Of a DNA stretch of 28,344 nucleotides, positions 4,765-26,130 are shown piece after piece (the stretch's first letter is position 1; every line of letters starts with the position of its first letter). The notes beneath the pieces were generated by a model. The model was given only the letters and a program-made list of their open reading frames with translations, had not been told where the DNA came from and did not search any database. Source of the stretch: a virus. The translations under genes were made by a program, and so were the position numbers. The stretch spans positions 1 through 28,344 of the IMG/VR virus record IMGVR_UViG_3300033148_007897, one strand, 5' to 3'.

Positions 4765-7700
4765 CTAGACCACCACCGGAATTGGTGCGCTCCAGGTTCC
4801 GGCCAGACCACGCTGTTCAGAAACGAAAGCGAACATTTTCTCATCACTCGCGCGTCGAGCTACCACCCAGATTGAATTGCCATCTGTTTCGGCATCCACT
4901 GAGTCATAGTCACCACTACTATCTACCACAACAGGCGGAGTCCAAGTCGTATTTTGATCAAGCCAACGGAAATTGATATCGTCTCCTTCAATGGAAACAA
5001 CTGCAGGTACGTTGCCTGCGGGAAAGCGGAACATATCAACGGCGCCTCCTGTAGAAAGCCCTGCAATTGTGCATCGACCAAAACTCGTGTATTCTCGATT
5101 AGCTCCCTCAAAGGTTGTGGATGTACCACGTACCCGATACTCCATATCTTTCTCCAGGAGAGGAGTGCTCCTGAAGCGGCCATGCTCGTCGGTTCCAACG
5201 ACACAGGCCCGCACCCAAGAATCGCCGGAGCCCAAAGCTCTCTGATCGATACGAACAGCAGCAGCTCGATTTCTTGCTCGTGCGCCACCGCCTGTACGAT
5301 AGGCGAGGCCATGACCTCGTATCCGAGGCAGCTTTTGGAAGCGCCACTCCTGATGGACGCCGGCAAGAAGATTTGTTTGCCCAACCTGCACAGCTCCATC
5401 TAAGGTTTGTGAACCCGAAGCCCATTTCCATTCATGCGCATTCTGTAAGTCGAACCAGTAGAGCATCGCAGCTAGTCGGTTGTCATCGGCGTCCTTGTTG
5501 TATGGACTCTCTTGTGGATTGTTCCACGTAGCGGACCAACCATCACGCCAAAGGAGTTCCTGCGCGAGTCGAGACAGATCCTTCAGGTGGTGGAGCTCGG
5601 TGGTACTGGCGCTGCCAGGACAGTGCTCTACCTTCTGAATGTAGAGCAGTTTCTGCTCATACCGATAGTTGTCATAGCCGTAGTCCGTCTCGAGTGCGTC
5701 CTTCCCATCAACAATTGCCCCGAACCCAAACCAATCCCTTGCAGGCCAATCCCACGAGCGCACAGCCCGAGCCTCGAAGTGTATGCTTGGCTCCGCCCGC
5801 GTACTCGTACCAGGATCAGCTACGAGGTTCAGTCCGTTAAGCCACCACTTCTGAACGACCCCAGTGTTGTTGGCAGGAAGTCGGAAGGTCAGTTTGTCCA
5901 CGTGGAAGAGGCGCGTCGCCTTCTCTGGGATGACACCTTCATCCGGCTTGAGTAGATCGATCAGGACAGTGTTCCTACCCGATGCTACTTGCACTGTGTA
6001 TGTGACCACTCGACGGGTACGGGTATAGGTCCAATCTGCCCATCTCGAGGTAGCACATGTGTAGCACGGGTCGGCGATGATGTTTATGGAGTAGTCTACC
6101 TGCAAGCTGATCTGGCCATCAATCGGTGCCGCCAATTCCAAGAGTAGGTATCCCCACTCATGCCAGTACCAGCTGTCCTCTCCATCAACACCTCCAGTCG
6201 CAGAACTCCACCAATCGGGATCATCATGCGTGTCAGTAATGGGAGCATTCGGCTTGAGCATGATCGGCCAGTCAGGGTGATACTGTAGTTCAGGTACCCA
6301 AACACCGCCGGCCAGCCTGTTGAGTCTCAAATAGTGGCGCGATGCGAAAGTCCGTGTTATTGTGGGAGAGGTTGTTCGCGCTCCAACAGCCCAACAATCA
6401 TTGTTCCAAGGCGGAATGAATACGCCTGTACTGCCCTCCCAGAACGTCGGACGAGAAGCGAGGGCCGGAGGAACGTTGACATTCAAACTGGAGTCGTGCG
6501 AGATCGTAAGAAGGTCCCAGATCGGTGAGCCGGTATAGTCCTTATTGATGGGATGACATAGCAGAGCGCACTGTTGGTCGTTCTTCGCAGCTGTGGCTCC
6601 ACCAACATTTTCTCCTCGCAGAGTCCTCCACGCCGATGTCTCTTGAATCTTTACAGCCGCCTTGGTGGAGAGAGTCTTCCATTCCCAATCGAATTCCCAA
6701 GACTTGTCTTGTTCGTAGTAGGGTTTCGAGCCTGTCCATGTGTCGACAGTGTAGACCGCAGGCGCGGTGTAGGTGATACAAGGTCCCTCATATTCGATGT
6801 TGCCTTCCGGATATGATGTCGAATCCTCGTGTCCACCATCTTCTGCAATGAAGACACCTTCATAGGGGCCTAGAATATCACAGCTCCATGTGCGGGCATC
6901 GTTCCCTGCTCCAGTCCACCACGTAGCTATACCACCGTTGTTCCCAATTCTTGCGCAATCACTATCTACACTCCGCTTCCAGTTTGGTTCATCCGCATCA
7001 GGTGCATCTCCAGTTCCAGGATTGCTCAAGTCAAGTCTTGAGAGGTCGACCGGAATACCGTTGAACTGCAACGCACTCAGACGACAGTAAATAACATCAT
7101 CCGCATCGTATCGATGCATATCAAAGGTGTACGTACAGCCCCAAGGGTTCGCACCGAGATCAATCTCTCCAGCCATACCTAGAGAACCTGAGATTGACAA
7201 CACAGATAAGTCTGGAAGCGTTAGCGATATAGTAACCTCTGAGTTCGCATCCGCATACCACGTCGATTCATTTTTGAAGTCAGTAGGATCCTTAGGTTGT
7301 CGATCTTCGGTGACGGGCGTGTCAGTTACTACACGCTGATCCTTGGGGTACAGGTTGGACACAGCCATTTCAAAGGGCGTCTTGATGGACTCGTAGCAGT
7401 CTATACCGCCTGTGGGTAGCGGAGAATTCAGCCCATATCCATCTTTCACCCAAAGATACAACTGCTGTGCGTTGGATGCCATCCCCACGTTAACCTGCGC
7501 CACAAACGGGATATACAACCCAAACCACACAGATCCTACAGGGCCCCCGGCAGGTGGTGGTGGATCGGTTATTGCATGTAAGTGCGGCGGACCAGATTTC
7601 CATTGTTTGGTTGCACGTACAGTATCCCAATTTCGAAGTTGTGCAGTTGCCCCAAGGGCGCTGAAGGACACCAAATTCGTTGGAGCCGAGAGAAGACCTG

Positions 7701-8142
7701 ACTCTTGATTCATGATCTCAAATGTCCCCGACCAAGCCCCATCCAACATCATCTCGCGACGCGCTTTACCTCCAGCAGCAGCGATGCTCGGCGAAAGTCC
7801 ATTCAGTTCAGCCGCGTTCAGCATCGCCGAATTGAACATCGCTTCAAGGGCCTCCTTGGGCGGCTCAAACGTATGTGACCAAGTGACGGGACCGGGTTCG
7901 TCCTTGGCAGTCGCTAATGCCCGTGCTCTTGCAACCGCCGCCTTCTGTCCGGCGAGCATCTGCTCGCGCGTCTTCTCCTCATAACTTGCGACCTCGTCGG
8001 CTGCTTCTCCCTGCCAGAAAGCCCAGAACTGGACCTGCCAGCAGAGCGCCGCAAACAGCGCCCCGCCGGTGAATATCGCCAAGAATATCACGAACAACCT
8101 AAACGGCTGGACGCTGATTGTGGTGGGTTTCACTGAGACCAT
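4765..8142 (-). CDS. 1125-residue tail-module protein with N-terminal membrane segment
   Basis: The largest gene of the window starts at ATG 8142 after a weak AAAGG; an in-frame GTG nine bases further in is possible. Residues ~13-43 are a hydrophobic, aromatic membrane helix (RLFVIFLAIFTGGALFAALC) with basic residues before it, predicting an N-in anchor. A charged helical stretch follows (~45-80), then about 1000 residues of Trp/Tyr/Asp-rich beta sequence with a few cysteine pairs (CYTC near residue 700). The C-terminal ~80 residues (FRWLDQNTTWTPP, then SIWVVARR and GTWSAPIPVV) resemble a beta-propeller or sialidase-like blade. An N-terminal anchor is unusual for a tail protein. The gene appears to have its own promoter and a structured leader RNA upstream. 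Family unknown; role in tail tip or membrane contact is inferred. Confidence 0.75.
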   Translation of the reverse strand: MVSVKPTTISVQPFRLFVIFLAIFTGGALFAALCWQVQFWAFWQGEAADEVASYEEKTREQMLAGQKAAVARARALATAKDEPGPVTWSHTFEPPKEALEAMFNSAMLNAAELNGLSPSIAAAGGKARREMMLDGAWSGTFEIMNQESGLLSAPTNLVSFSALGATAQLRNWDTVRATKQWKSGPPHLHAITDPPPPAGGPVGSVWFGLYIPFVAQVNVGMASNAQQLYLWVKDGYGLNSPLPTGGIDCYESIKTPFEMAVSNLYPKDQRVVTDTPVTEDRQPKDPTDFKNESTWYADANSEVTISLTLPDLSVLSISGSLGMAGEIDLGANPWGCTYTFDMHRYDADDVIYCRLSALQFNGIPVDLSRLDLSNPGTGDAPDADEPNWKRSVDSDCARIGNNGGIATWWTGAGNDARTWSCDILGPYEGVFIAEDGGHEDSTSYPEGNIEYEGPCITYTAPAVYTVDTWTGSKPYYEQDKSWEFDWEWKTLSTKAAVKIQETSAWRTLRGENVGGATAAKNDQQCALLCHPINKDYTGSPIWDLLTISHDSSLNVNVPPALASRPTFWEGSTGVFIPPWNNDCWAVGARTTSPTITRTFASRHYLRLNRLAGGVWVPELQYHPDWPIMLKPNAPITDTHDDPDWWSSATGGVDGEDSWYWHEWGYLLLELAAPIDGQISLQVDYSINIIADPCYTCATSRWADWTYTRTRRVVTYTVQVASGRNTVLIDLLKPDEGVIPEKATRLFHVDKLTFRLPANNTGVVQKWWLNGLNLVADPGTSTRAEPSIHFEARAVRSWDWPARDWFGFGAIVDGKDALETDYGYDNYRYEQKLLYIQKVEHCPGSASTTELHHLKDLSRLAQELLWRDGWSATWNNPQESPYNKDADDNRLAAMLYWFDLQNAHEWKWASGSQTLDGAVQVGQTNLLAGVHQEWRFQKLPRIRGHGLAYRTGGGARARNRAAAVRIDQRALGSGDSWVRACVVGTDEHGRFRSTPLLEKDMEYRVRGTSTTFEGANREYTSFGRCTIAGLSTGGAVDMFRFPAGNVPAVVSIEGDDINFRWLDQNTTWTPPVVVDSSGDYDSVDAETDGNSIWVVARRASDEKMFAFVSEQRGLAGTWSAPIPVVV

Positions 8143-8165
8143 GCCTTTCTTAGCTGTCCCGAATC

Positions 8166-8285
8166 AAAAGGCCCCAGTGACGGTCCGGACGTTCCCGCTA
8201 AGAAGCGCCGAGCCGCTGTCACTGAGGCCAAAGATTTGGTCTGCCAAGAACTGCAAACGACCCGGCAACCGTCCTTAGCGGGAAC
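8166..8285 (-). ncRNA. Candidate structured RNA: interleaved 12-bp stems (pseudoknot) with own promoter
   Basis: The predicted transcript begins at 8285, 7 nt after a TATAAT box, with GUUCCCGCUAAG (8285-8274). This pairs perfectly with CUUAGCGGGAAC (8202-8191). Inside the loop, GGCCUCAGUGAC (8229-8218) pairs over 12 positions, one of them G-U, with GUCACUGGGGCC (8181-8170), which lies beyond the first stem. The order A-B-A'-B' is a pseudoknot. The first loop can also form GGUUGCC with GGCAGACC (one bulge), and the second loop AGCG with CGCU. UUUU (8169-8166) follows the GC-rich second stem, like an intrinsic terminator. It could be a free small RNA or a cis leader, since the 1125-residue gene starts 24 nt downstream. 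I recognise no known RNA family. Structure seen by eye; function unknown. Confidence 0.6.
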
Positions 8286-8291
8286 ATCCTC

Positions 8292-8319
8292 ATTATACCC
8301 ACCGCGCCGCGAAAGTCAA
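8292..8319 (-). promoter_or_regulatory. Sigma-70/A-type promoter, TTGACT-16-TATAAT
   Basis: On the minus strand TTGACT (8319-8314) is followed after 16 nt by a perfect TATAAT (8297-8292). It lies in the 186-nt gap after the fibre-like gene, just past that gene's TAG. A start 7 nt downstream falls on 8285, the first base of the long RNA stem. It probably transcribes the structured RNA and possibly the 1125- and 769-residue genes. Confidence 0.65.
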
Positions 8320-8328
8320 AACTGCCTA

Positions 8329-9273
8329 CTACACAGTCGGCTCGCCAAGTTTGTCCAGCGTGAATACGAAGTGGACCCCAAAGAGTCGCGCGTCCCCCAC
8401 ATAGTCATCGTTCGGCGCATCCCGATAAAGGCGGATACCGACCTGATCATGCGTCGCAAGGTTTGCGCCTAGTATCCCAGTAGTGAAGGCCGTGTCGATG
8501 CGCAGCCCTTGATTTGCGTCGAGAGCGGCTTGATCCTGGGTGATAGTCGTGACAGCTCCAGCAACGGCTTCACCCACAGCAACGGCGCGATAGTCAAGTC
8601 CCCAGCGCACAAACTTAGCTGCATCCGGAGCATTTGCATCATGCATCCATATGATTGTTATCGCGATGTCTGTACCTACAGCCCAGCGATACGGAATATT
8701 GAGGGTGTAGTAGATTTGTTCTAAGGAGCTATCATCGAAGTCGACAGTCGCAAAGTACCCCTCTAAGGTGTCCTCTGGCGGCGAGCCGCCGGTGACTTTC
8801 TTGAAAGTGTCTGCCCTGACATAGATGTGGCGTAAGACCCGCGCTGTTCCATGCAGCGTGATCTCTCCATCAGCAGCGAACTGGGTATAGTTTATCCCAT
8901 CACCGATCTTGTCGCCCGCAGCAAGAACTCGAAGATCGATTTCGTCATGGATCTGTTGTAAGTTACCCGCAACAAGGAGCAGCTGCACTTTCTCCAAAGC
9001 GTCGTGCGCAACTCCAGCCGTGCCCTCTTGTCCACGAACGATGGTAAATACATCTCCAACCCGGTTAGTCACCTTCACAATCTCCATTCCAGGATCGTCG
9101 CCAGGCTGGCTTGCTACATTGCTATCCCATATTGTCACGAAGTACGGAAAGACAGCAGGAAAATCCGCACCGTTCAGAAGCGTCATGGTAACTGCTGCGC
9201 CGTCTGCAATGTCCAGCAGCAGAGTAGACTTGGCGTTGTTCGCGACCTTATACCAATCAACGGGTGCAGGCAT
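8329..9273 (-). CDS. Tail fibre-like / receptor-binding candidate
   Basis: This encodes 314 residues from ATG 9273 behind GGAGGT. The N-terminal ~110 residues match a motif common at the base of phage fibres and baseplate proteins. It comprises a beta stretch (FPYFVTIWDS), then MEIVKVTNRVGDVFTIVRGQEGTAGVAH, and a helix ending QQIHDEIDLRV. The C-terminal half is a beta-rich domain with TDIAITIIWMHDANA and FVRWGLDYRAVAVGEA, resembling jelly-roll segments in virion proteins. It directly follows the tape measure gene, where a distal-tail protein is usual, so a tail-tip or receptor-binding role is likely. Exact family not identified. Confidence 0.7.
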   Translation of the reverse strand: MPAPVDWYKVANNAKSTLLLDIADGAAVTMTLLNGADFPAVFPYFVTIWDSNVASQPGDDPGMEIVKVTNRVGDVFTIVRGQEGTAGVAHDALEKVQLLLVAGNLQQIHDEIDLRVLAAGDKIGDGINYTQFAADGEITLHGTARVLRHIYVRADTFKKVTGGSPPEDTLEGYFATVDFDDSSLEQIYYTLNIPYRWAVGTDIAITIIWMHDANAPDAAKFVRWGLDYRAVAVGEAVAGAVTTITQDQAALDANQGLRIDTAFTTGILGANLATHDQVGIRLYRDAPNDDYVGDARLFGVHFVFTLDKLGEPTV

Positions 9274-14099: not shown

Positions 14100-15086
14100 T
14101 CACTCCTTCTCGAATAGATTGCACTCCGGAACATCAGGCTCAAGCAATCTCAACCAAAAAGGTCCCGGTGCGCTCTGTGCACGATGTAATCGAACATGTG
14201 CCCCACCCCTCTCCTCATAGATACCCGCAAGACGAACTCTTTCACCAGGGAACACTATCTCAGTCTGAGTCAAGTCATACGGCAGGTCTAGTGTTGGTAT
14301 TGGCTTTCGAGGTCGCCAAAACCCTGGAGTGTCATAGCTATTGTAGACAAGACGCTCTCCCTGTATGCGTCCATCCCTATACCGGGGCCAATTGACCCGA
14401 ACACTGTCCAGCTCCTGAGGAGACTCATTGCAGTGGGGGACCAGGACACCTCCATCCAACAATGCGGGTTGTCCGAATTCTCTTGCAAAGCTCTCGCCCA
14501 ATTGCTTGTCCGGCGCCGCCTCTCCGGGCTGCCAGACACAACAATCTATGACGTCCCTCCGGGTCAGAAGACAACCCAGACCGGACCACGGGACCTCTTG
14601 GAGTTCTCCGGGCTGCACATCCGACAACATCATACCCTTGTGTCCGTCTCTGGAAGGTACATTGAGGCGAGAGAATACCACACGGCTGGGTGACGTGACC
14701 GCCACGTAGGGCTCTCCGTGGGATACCAGACGCCGTAGAGCTCCTGGCGGCGGAACCTGATCACATTCCAACCACCAACACCATGGTTTACCGCTATCCA
14801 GGAAACGTCGCTGCGCTATTTGGTACAGGGCAGTTACGTTCGCCCCACGATTATCGAACCTCTCTGGGATCTCCGCGTGCTCGGTCAGAACAACGAACCG
14901 CACCTCCGCACACAAAGCATCTAAGAAGATCTCCGCGACATCGCAAGAGCCGTCAAACAGGACGAGCAGCGTCAGCTTCTCATGTGGGTAGTCTAGTTTG
15001 CGCAGGGCATCCATCAACCAAGGCCATACGTATTCCTTGCCCGCACAGACCAACACGCTCATCCACACTTCTGGAAGATTCGTCAT
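14100..15086 (-). CDS. Glycosyltransferase, family-2-like (GT-A), inside the tail module
   Basis: This encodes 328 residues. ATG 15086 overlaps the upstream stop as TGATG, and the gene ends 5 nt before the next start. The N-terminal ~225 residues match a GT-A nucleotide-sugar transferase: SVLVCAGKEYVWPWLMDALRKL (1st strand/helix), LLVLFDGSCD (~40-49), and CWWLECDQVPPPGAL with the acidic Asp109 in the DxD position. An acceptor-side motif VPWSGLGCLLTRRDVI (~166-180), a DKQLGESFAREFG catalytic-helix region and LVPHC (His218) complete the pattern. The last ~50 residues form a small beta domain. It probably transfers a sugar onto a virion protein in the cytoplasm. Known cases exist in mycobacteriophages; the substrate here is unknown. 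Confidence 0.8.
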   Translation of the reverse strand: MTNLPEVWMSVLVCAGKEYVWPWLMDALRKLDYPHEKLTLLVLFDGSCDVAEIFLDALCAEVRFVVLTEHAEIPERFDNRGANVTALYQIAQRRFLDSGKPWCWWLECDQVPPPGALRRLVSHGEPYVAVTSPSRVVFSRLNVPSRDGHKGMMLSDVQPGELQEVPWSGLGCLLTRRDVIDCCVWQPGEAAPDKQLGESFAREFGQPALLDGGVLVPHCNESPQELDSVRVNWPRYRDGRIQGERLVYNSYDTPGFWRPRKPIPTLDLPYDLTQTEIVFPGERVRLAGIYEERGGAHVRLHRAQSAPGPFWLRLLEPDVPECNLFEKE

Positions 15087-16562: not shown

Positions 16563-16590
16563 TTGGTACACCTCGGTTACACAAGTTAGA

Positions 16591-16625
16591 TGCTACTGGG
16601 GTAGCAAAGTACTACCCCAGCAGCA
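16591..16625 (-). terminator. Stable hairpin after the capsid gene
   Basis: CTGGGGTAG (16596-16604) and CTACCCCAG (16612-16620) form a perfect 9-bp stem with a 7-nt loop. It extends, after one mismatch, by TGCT/AGCA to 16591-16625. It lies 32 nt beyond the capsid stop and ~30 nt before the next start. No U-tract follows on either strand. It may therefore be a leaky terminator or an RNA-stability/processing element that raises capsid mRNA over downstream genes. Confidence 0.6.
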
Positions 16626-16657
16626 TGGCCGTTGCCATTGCAGTATGTAACCAGCCG

Positions 16658-21609: not shown

Positions 21610-22872
21610 CTAGCCTACCGGCAAGACTTCATTAGACTCCGCAGGTGGATAGATCGCCTCAAACGTTTCTCGGAGCTTTCTGTCGTCCTTTTCGGTGATG
21701 GGGTTCCCCGACATCGCAGCCGAGGACTTGCCGCGCTCCACCGACTCGAAGACTTGCGCCAGGAGCTGAAGGTCTTTCTGAGACAACTCATCCCAAGACC
21801 ATTCCCCATAACTGGCCATTGGGCCCACGTTCGCAATAATCAATGGTCGACTGAGCTGATCAACGAGAACGCCTCCGATTTCTCGACGCATCCCATCCAC
21901 TAACATGAAGAACAGCTCCAACATGCTACCAGCCTGCGCGCGAGAACCGTGCTCCGGCTCCTCCAAAATCATGCGAGGCGTCAGAAGACTGGCGAACAGC
22001 TCCTCCCGCCAGTAATCCAAGATCGCTAGGAACGGCTTGCCATCACCTTGCATGGTCAGCGCATCAATATCCGAAGGGCTCTCCACATCACTCGCAAAGA
22101 CCAATGCTTGTCCTGGAGATAGTTGCTCGTAGAAATCCGCAATGAATTGTACAAGTGATATCTCTTGACCTGGATTCTTGGGATCCTCGACCATCTCATG
22201 GCCGCAACGAATCACAGGCGTAGGCATGGCCAGTTTCTCGGAGAACGTATTCCAGAAGTTCTCGTTCATGGTCTTCGCGTACCATGCGCGGCGAGCGGAA
22301 GCCAGCAAGCTATTCCCCAAAACTTCCTCACGTAACTCCTGGAACAAGGGCCAGTAGATAACTTGCTGCTCTGACAGCGTTACCCCTTCGGCTCCAATCT
22401 CTTCCGGGTATTGAATGAACTCCTTGACGCGCTTTTCTCTTTCGTCGAGTCGGATGCCAATATCGTCATTTTGCGGGGAAAAGAACGTTAGAGGATGGAG
22501 GAGATTCGTTCTCTCAACTGACCAGATAGTCGGATCCCTTTTCCATTCGAGCTCAACCACGGCAAACCCAGCCCACATTGCAGAACAAAGCTGCGCGACA
22601 ACTGTCGGAACGCCTCCTCGAATTCTGGACATCAGTCCGCCGACTGCTTCTTCAATACGCGGGTCGGGATGACTGTAATGGCCCAGTTTTCGAAGGACCA
22701 GGTTTCGTAAGAGCACCAAGACTCTTCGAGTAGTCGCCTCGTACTTCCGCATGAGGAGATAATCCATGAGGCGATCTCTTGGAGCCGGAAACGCCTTATA
22801 CGGACCGCTATGATAATTTTCAACATTGAAGCTCTTGGATTGCAGTCCAGACTTGACAAGTCCCTCGGCCAC
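21610..22872 (-). CDS. Portal protein (DUF935-like)
   Basis: This encodes 420 residues from GTG 22872, behind GAGGTG in the last codons of the terminase gene. It matches the DUF935 / Mu gp29-like portal pattern: RKYEATTRRVLVLLRNLVLRKLG helices, AVVAQLCSAMWAGFAVVELEW, the stem-region EVLGNSLLASARRAWYAKTMNENFWNTFSEKLAMPTPV and LVFASDVESPSDIDAL. A C-terminal helix region LASLLTPRMILEEPEHGSRAQAG follows. The portal is the dodecameric ring through which DNA enters and leaves. Flanked by terminase and MuF genes as usual. Confident. Confidence 0.88.
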   Translation of the reverse strand: MAEGLVKSGLQSKSFNVENYHSGPYKAFPAPRDRLMDYLLMRKYEATTRRVLVLLRNLVLRKLGHYSHPDPRIEEAVGGLMSRIRGGVPTVVAQLCSAMWAGFAVVELEWKRDPTIWSVERTNLLHPLTFFSPQNDDIGIRLDEREKRVKEFIQYPEEIGAEGVTLSEQQVIYWPLFQELREEVLGNSLLASARRAWYAKTMNENFWNTFSEKLAMPTPVIRCGHEMVEDPKNPGQEISLVQFIADFYEQLSPGQALVFASDVESPSDIDALTMQGDGKPFLAILDYWREELFASLLTPRMILEEPEHGSRAQAGSMLELFFMLVDGMRREIGGVLVDQLSRPLIIANVGPMASYGEWSWDELSQKDLQLLAQVFESVERGKSSAAMSGNPITEKDDRKLRETFEAIYPPAESNEVLPVG

Positions 22873-24960: not shown

Positions 24961-25269
24961 TTATTCACCGCCACTCAAACCTACAAGGAGCCCTGGTAGG
25001 GCGTCACCGTTGCCCGGCTCCCTATCCGCATCATCCCCCTCGGGGGCGACCATTCCCATCGTCTTCTCTTCGAGCGCTATCTGCAGCTTCTGAATATCTC
25101 GGATGATAATCGTCGTCTCCGGGAAGACGATGTCTCGCTCCTGCTCAATACGCACCGCTGTTTGCAGCCGCTCAAACTCGATCTTCAGGAGATACCGCAG
25201 CAGCGCCTCCGGCGCGTCTAAGTCCGGCGGCTCAGCATTGCACCGCGCCGCTTTCTCGCTCCCTGCCAT
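24961..25269 (-). CDS. Small hypothetical protein before the terminase genes
   Basis: The chosen start is ATG 25269 (MAGSEKAARC), with GAGGAA ~11 nt upstream. An earlier in-frame start at 25311 would extend the overlap with the HNH gene. The ~102-residue product is a helical pair: APEALLRYLLKIEFERLQTAVRIEQ and TTIIIRDIQKLQIALEEK, with an acidic Gly/Pro tail. It looks like a small oligomer-forming accessory of the packaging operon. Family not recognised. The stop is 2 nt before the small terminase start. Confidence 0.6.
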   Translation of the reverse strand: MAGSEKAARCNAEPPDLDAPEALLRYLLKIEFERLQTAVRIEQERDIVFPETTIIIRDIQKLQIALEEKTMGMVAPEGDDADREPGNGDALPGLLVGLSGGE

Positions 25270-25496
25270 TCGGACACATTCCTCAGTAACGGGTGCATGA
25301 GCGCATGGCACTCATCACAGAGTATGAGCATGTTTGCGGGCTCGTAGACGAGTTCTGAGTGTATGCGCGTCTCACTTACCCGGATGATATGATGCACATG
25401 TGTCGCCGGTGCCCCACAAGCCTCGCAGAAGTCGCCACGCTCGGCGCGGACCTCGCGGACGATGCGCTGATAGCGTTGGACCGCGTTTTCAGGCAT
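25218..25496 (-). CDS. HNH endonuclease
   Basis: This encodes 92 residues from ATG 25496. It has the complete HNH zinc-nuclease layout: CEAC (24-27), HVHHI with the catalytic His pair 35-36, the ANMLILC segment with Asn55, then CDECH (60-64) and His68. The enzyme nicks or cuts DNA. HNH proteins placed directly before terminase are common and in several phages are needed for packaging cleavage, so a role with this terminase is plausible (inference). It overlaps the next gene by 52 nt. Confidence 0.9.
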   Translation of the reverse strand: MPENAVQRYQRIVREVRAERGDFCEACGAPATHVHHIIRVSETRIHSELVYEPANMLILCDECHALMHPLLRNVSEWQGARKRRGAMLSRRT

Positions 25497-25747: not shown

Positions 25748-26064
25748 ACCGCTGCCCGCTCCCTCTGCGGGGTCCGATTGTCACACATCAGTCTCTCGAG
25801 AATCCGACGCCGCTCTTCAGCCTGCAATTCATCAGCCCTTATCGGCATTAGGGTCTCGGGAGCTAATCCGGCTAATGCCGCCTCATACGCTGCCCTCTGC
25901 TTCGCTCGTAAACGCAAGAGCCGGGTGGTCCTGCGGAATGCATCAGGCCCGAAGAGGCGCGAGAGCTCCTCCCGCTCCTCTGCGCAACATAGCTCATATA
26001 CGAGTGGCATCGCGAGCCCCAGAATCAAAACGCCCCCAGTATAGTAGCTGAGGGCGTAGCTCAA
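25744..26064 (-). CDS. Small helical protein, first gene after the 26.1-kb promoter
   Basis: The frame opens at TTG 26064, about 30 nt after the predicted transcription start; an internal ATG at 26010 (MPLVYEL) is the other candidate. Neither has a good ribosome site. The product (106 or 88 residues) begins with a hydrophobic stretch if the TTG is used, YYTGGVLILGLAMPLVYEL. It continues as charged helices (AEEREELSRLFG, RTTRLLRLRAKQRAAYEAALAG, LQAEERRRILERLM). No family recognised. Its stop overlaps the zinc-ribbon start. Confidence 0.5.
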   Translation of the reverse strand: MSYALSYYTGGVLILGLAMPLVYELCCAEEREELSRLFGPDAFRRTTRLLRLRAKQRAAYEAALAGLAPETLMPIRADELQAEERRRILERLMCDNRTPQRERAAV

Positions 26065-26100: not shown

Positions 26101-26130
26101 ATTCTAGACGATACAAGTTCTACTTGTCAA
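26101..26130 (-). promoter_or_regulatory. Sigma-70/A-type promoter, TTGACA-18-TAGAAT
   Basis: On the minus strand a perfect TTGACA (26130-26125) is followed after 18 nt by TAGAAT (26106-26101), five of six bases of the -10 consensus. The -35 box overlaps the TGA of the upstream gene. The first downstream frame opens at 26064. It probably drives the small genes, HNH and the packaging/head operon. Confidence 0.65.
26113..26127. promoter_or_regulatory. 15-bp palindrome, candidate operator
   Basis: ACAAGT-TCT-ACTTGT is a perfect 6-bp inverted repeat with a 3-bp centre. It overlaps the end of the -35 box and the spacer of the 26.1-kb promoter. A dimeric repressor bound here would block RNA polymerase. 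No second copy was noticed in the window. Confidence 0.5.

Follow-up and report, generated by a model that had tools for sequence, protein, structure and literature searches.

A promoter and structured leader with a putative conditional terminator upstream of a large tail gene in an uncultured phage

Gene content of the contig and searches for relatives

The window, meaning the whole stretch of DNA that was analysed (28,344 nucleotides), corresponds to a linear IMG/VR phage contig of 28.3 kb, itself a fragment. Its minus strand carries the structural genes, encoding terminase, portal, head protease, capsid and tape measure (PhageMin_Tail) proteins; after the tape measure gene come genes for a 314-aa tail-fibre-like protein and then for proteins of 1125 aa and 769 aa, both of them without a family match. 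The 1125-aa gene (4765..8142, minus strand) encodes a protein with an N-terminal transmembrane-like segment (PFRLFVIFLAIFTGGALFAALCWQVQFWAFW; 8030-8142, minus strand), a feature that is odd in tail proteins; this protein matched no family and no phage sequence. Other genes of the minus strand include one for a 328-aa protein that resembles a glycosyltransferase (14100-15086), located amid neck and tail genes and without a PHROG match, and an HNH endonuclease gene (25218-25496) upstream of the terminase genes. Two further features of the minus strand are structural. A very strong hairpin (16590-16626) occupies the gap (16572-16657) between the capsid gene and a head-tail adaptor gene; it consists of a perfect 15-bp stem, GCTGCTGGGGTAGTAC-TTT-GCTACCCCAGTAGC, inside an outer GGTTACA/TGTAACC helix (z -4.4), is the second-strongest stem of the contig, has no T tail, and is perhaps a processing or attenuation site. 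Inside the portal gene (22093-22368) there is a cluster of interleaved stems (scores 10.5-12), weaker than the A/B pair described below and probably due to chance.

No Rfam covariance model reached its gathering score in the window, which gave only local, chance-level matches on the plus strand, in keeping with the original prediction, in which no known family was recognised. The region has no copy in phages or plasmids by megablast or blastn, and the 1125-, 314-, 769-, 290- and 348-aa proteins had no tblastn match in phage records. Phage records, viral contigs and species genomes yielded no relative with these tail genes, the contig scans consisting of exact short peptide patterns, which reach close relatives only unless an alignment is given. 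Good relatives were found for the terminase alone, the best being 52% identical (in L008, which has no other gene of the window), and none of the terminase relatives carries the tail genes. To judge from these comparisons, the phage appears to have no close relatives in the collections searched.

Promoter and paired elements in the intergenic region

A gap of 186 nt separates the 314-aa gene (end at 8329) from the 1125-aa gene (start at 8142), and all of the elements originally predicted for it were located there on the minus strand. Extension of the 314-aa gene by read-through or frameshifting was considered and rejected, because stops recur at once in its own frame.

The promoter (8292..8319, minus strand) has the sequence TTGACT-16-TATAAT, with 11 of 12 consensus matches, and predicts a start at 8285 (+/-2). 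Sites with at least 11 of 12 matches to the sigma-70 consensus are found twice in the window, at 8319 and 26130, compared to an average of 0.075 in shuffles of the whole window; both are intergenic and on the gene strand, the -35 element of the 26130 promoter touching the final bases of the upstream ORF. Judging by the genes downstream of it, the 8319 promoter would be a late promoter. The leader also contains an open but unremarkable ORF of about 35 codons (UUG start at 8268).

The first paired element, A-A', is a 16-nt inverted repeat with one G-U pair, formed by a 5' arm, A (8274..8289, minus strand), and a 3' arm, A' (8187..8202, minus strand). The perfect 12-bp stem reported at first, 8285-8274 (GTTCCCGCTAAG) with 8202-8191, is present within it. 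Because A-A' extends outward to 8289/8187, the accompanying claim that the transcription start coincides with the stem's first base is true only within about 4 nt. With its 16-18 bp, A-A' outranks every other stem that spans up to 190 nt in a whole-contig scan. In the minimum-free-energy fold, positions 8206..8266 (minus strand) form an inner helix (~8266-8256 with 8216-8206) and an apical loop containing the arm B described below. Small extra helices had been predicted in the loops; the inner helix exists but was underrated, as it joins A in a single hairpin of 103 nt with a predicted energy of -55 kcal/mol (z about -6), which is far beyond chance and very unlikely to be random. The plus strand folds worse (-42.5 versus -55.0 kcal/mol on the minus strand) because the non-Watson-Crick pairs are G-U on the minus strand only, a difference that speaks for RNA of the minus strand. 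A transposon-like inverted repeat was rejected for want of a visible flanking duplication and because folding is weaker on the plus strand.

The second paired element consists of a 5' arm, B (8218..8229, minus strand; GGCCTCAGTGAC), and a 3' arm, B' (8170..8181, minus strand; GTCACTGGGGCC), which pair over 12 bp with one G-U, as predicted, and are followed by TTTTGATT; the T-rich tail is TTTTGATTC (8161..8169, minus strand). The resulting rod (8229-8170) has 60 nt and a predicted energy of -33.2 kcal/mol, and tops all T-tailed stems on either strand of the contig. It has the G+C-rich stem and U-rich tract of an intrinsic terminator, as does the second unit described below, but not the short loop and uninterrupted 7-8 U residues: the B-B' stem encloses 36 nt, and the tail of both units is UUUUGAUU, in which 6 of 8 residues are U, broken by GA. 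The A-B-A'-B' interleaving of the two stems is real, and an interleaved pair of such length was found in none of 5000 dinucleotide shuffles of the gap, while 23 of 5000 contained even one stem of at least 12. Thus, the view that the arrangement is hard to explain by chance can be kept for the pair and for the A hairpin, but B-B' alone is just moderately beyond chance. Since it is only about the 8th-9th strongest stem on its strand in the whole-contig scan, it needs other support, which is given by the second promoter unit.

A second putative promoter-terminator unit in the contig

The second promoter, TTGACA-18-TAGAAT (26101..26130, minus strand; 11 of 12 matches), has a predicted start at about 26094 and precedes the head-gene part of the operon. 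It is followed by a terminator hairpin, ACGCCCTCAG-CTACTATA-CTGGGGGCGT, and then by the same 9-nt tail, the whole occupying 26022..26057 on the minus strand, with a 10-bp stem and an 8-nt loop of normal size. The predicted energy of this unit is -29.0 kcal/mol with the terminator and -13.2 kcal/mol with the 3' arm of the terminator blocked, and there is no competitor fold.

The resemblance between the two units lies in their endings. The tail is present in two identical copies only in the window (8161-8169 and 26022-26030), against 0.09 expected, and two copies occurred in none of 100 shuffles. Stem and tail are located 122 nt downstream of the 8319 promoter and 70 nt downstream of the 26130 promoter, and B-B' (GGCCTCAG...CTGGGGCC) and the 26057 stem have CCTCAG/CTGGGG in common, with the same U-G wobble. 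Both units adjoin start codons on the same strand at a distance of 11-18 nt, with an ATG at 26010 after the tail of the second unit and an ATG 18 nt beyond the tail of the first. Of 28 promoters with at least 11 of 12 matches in other phage loci totalling 1.0 Mb, none was followed at 40-200 nt by a terminator-like stem, compared to 2 of 2 in the window; the margin is large, and the control was devised after the pattern had been seen. Outside the terminator end, the two leaders are scarcely alike (66 of 2000 shuffles align equally well), indicating a shared ending and not a duplicated RNA. The presence in one contig of a second promoter-terminator unit with the same tail strengthens the promoter/terminator reading, and the suggestions in the original prediction of a terminator/antiterminator leader or free RNA, and of a terminator-like tail, gain support from it.

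Alternative folds of the leader

For a transcript with its 3' end at 8162, when the T tail has been made, the best predicted fold is the A hairpin at -53.0 kcal/mol and the best fold with B-B' is at -49.4 kcal/mol. Since the rod takes up bases of A', nested folding allows the A hairpin or the B rod but not both, and by these predicted energies the leader would contain, in the manner of an attenuator, both a terminator and a mutually exclusive fold of similar stability. The probability of B-B' is almost zero in nested equilibrium folding, so that kinetic effects, a pseudoknot or a factor would have to bring about termination.

The compact pseudoknotted RNA that had been proposed was not supported. 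The linker from A' to B' is 5-9 nt, which is too short to bridge the A hairpin with the inner helix formed, and because it cannot pass along the full A hairpin, a pseudoknot must lose the inner helix. A rough sum of helix and loop terms for a pseudoknot with both stems is about -35 to -55 kcal/mol before any pseudoknot penalty, an approximate estimate that the nested folds (-53 and -49 kcal/mol) beat or match. On account of the short linker and the nested energies, A-A' and B-B' are regarded as alternatives and not as a stable pseudoknot, a transient form of which is possible. A self-cleaving ribozyme of the HDV type, which has the same A-B-A'-B' order, was rejected because the stems are too long, the 44-nt junction from A to B does not fit, and there is no Rfam match.

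Proposed function and rival explanations

The sequences of the elements, the recurrence of the unit and the computed energies of the folds are established. About an even chance is given to the explanation that the region comprises a promoter and, before the 1125-aa tail gene, a structured leader whose intrinsic terminator is conditional and close to the promoter. The region probably serves to switch late genes on or off and is not a new kind of RNA; B-B' is best read as the promoter-proximal terminator and A-A' as its competitor. RNA polymerase would start near 8285, and the B-B' rod with UUUUGAUU could stop it at about 8162, leaving a short transcript of about 124 nt. Formation of the A-A' hairpin would come first, and this hairpin is slightly more stable by prediction; as long as it lasted, B would be trapped in its loop and the polymerase would continue into the tail genes, regulated read-through yielding the tail mRNA. 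The A hairpin would in this way counteract termination, and the choice may be governed by a factor that acts at both units; given the same layout at 26130-26022 before the head genes, a single antitermination factor of the phage or its host could relieve the block at both. None of the proteins scanned in the contig fragment was recognised as an antitermination factor. If this explanation is right, two promoter-proximal terminators with a common end govern the structural genes of the phage, and one of them sits among the tail genes and has a competing hairpin to hold it in check.

A rival possibility is that a small phage RNA (about 124 nt), together with a second of about 72 nt (26094-26023), acts as a free molecule in trans, with read-through as an incidental event; this would suit the possession of a separate promoter, the dense structure, the terminator-like end and the occurrence of two copies. 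It is considered rather unlikely, because both units lie like leaders just before a same-strand start codon, the bodies of the two RNAs are dissimilar, and neither Rfam nor the phage and plasmid sequences yielded a match.

The leader could instead control translation, with B' pairing either with B, so that the start is free, or with a third element, B'' (8130..8140, minus strand), so that the start of the 1125-aa gene is masked and the amount of tail protein limited. B'' lies in the start region of the gene, is a 12-nt direct repeat of B, and is complementary to B' over 11 bp with two G-U pairs; the predicted probability of the B'-B'' pair is 1.0 in the read-through transcript, and of 18 genes tested no other has an upstream complement to its start of such length. 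In addition, A' is complementary over 8 nt to the Shine-Dalgarno region (8154-8147). By prediction, B' covers the start of the 1125-aa gene in read-through transcripts, but this pairing is suggestive only, because the contiguous match is equalled by 40 of 1500 shuffled leaders. Energy-based duplexes are unexceptional (274 of 2000 shuffles), masking would begin at codon 1 and not at the Shine-Dalgarno sequence, and translational control as the main explanation is judged unlikely. Anti-Shine-Dalgarno pairing by the leader as the main function was rejected, since by energy it is not beyond shuffles.

Similarly unlikely, and placed after translational control, is a role of the A hairpin as a stem-loop at the 5' terminus, or as an RNase III-type site, that would determine how stable the tail-gene mRNA is, the pairings of B being secondary. 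The hairpin is very stable and the predicted start lies at its base, so that the 5' end would be paired, and 5' stem-loops are known to block RppH and RNase E (PMC3997798); a further intercistronic hairpin of great strength is present after the capsid gene (16626-16590). Such a role, however, leaves the repeated stem and TTTTGATTC after both promoters unexplained.

Very doubtful is the further proposal that the terminated RNA of about 124 nt displays B in its apical loop and pairs in trans with B' of the read-through mRNA; if true, the tail-gene start would be freed and production of the tail protein would hinge on how much short RNA had accumulated, in effect a small-RNA timer for tail assembly. 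Chance or decayed sequence, with a genuine hairpin beside which B stem, tail and promoter lie by accident only, would be compatible with the modest rank of B-B', the interleaved stems within a coding gene and the failure to find homologues, but is highly improbable in view of the shuffling result for the stem pair and the recurrence of the promoter-stem-tail unit at 26130-26022.

Comparison with known systems

The leader of gene 32 in phages T4 and T2 forms a small coaxial pseudoknot that is bound by gp32 (PMC3014915). In both cases a phage leader has interleaved pairing ahead of a start codon, but the stems here are 12-18 bp long and their coexistence is disfavoured. Attenuators and the expression platforms of riboswitches are also leaders with two mutually exclusive folds, one of which is a terminator, whereas the competitor here encloses an arm of the terminator rather than sharing a strand with it, and no leader peptide, ligand domain or Rfam match was recognised in the leader.

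The nearest anatomical parallel is the IsrK locus of prophage Gifsy-1, a dual small RNA and mRNA with its own promoter, a Rho-independent terminator, near-isoenergetic alternative folds and a translationally silent read-through isoform (PMC4825925). Here too there are a promoter, a putative terminator and predicted alternative folds, and a silent read-through mRNA is a prediction only. The sequences are unrelated, and the genes downstream differ, being orf45-anrP for IsrK and a large tail protein here.

The preferred reading, a promoter followed by a conditional terminator, is nearest in logic to pR'-tR' of phage lambda. In lambda, the structural-gene promoter pR' is followed shortly by an intrinsic terminator, tR', and the late genes need read-through. 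The mechanism of antitermination by lambda Q has been described (PMC7171158). A promoter of the structural-gene region with a putative terminator close behind it, between promoter and genes, is found here also, the lateness of the promoter being deduced from those genes. No Q-like gene or Q-binding element was recognised when the proteins of the window, itself a fragment, were scanned, and membership of the lambda pR'-tR' class or of the IsrK class is not claimed. The contig differs from lambda in having two units, one of them within the tail genes, and in that the 8319 unit has its own competing hairpin. If the preferred reading is right, antitermination of late genes in the style of lambda, usually a single switch, would be extended to control at two points, and the region would offer a candidate mechanism, open to testing, by which an uncultured phage adjusts how much of a very large tail protein it makes.
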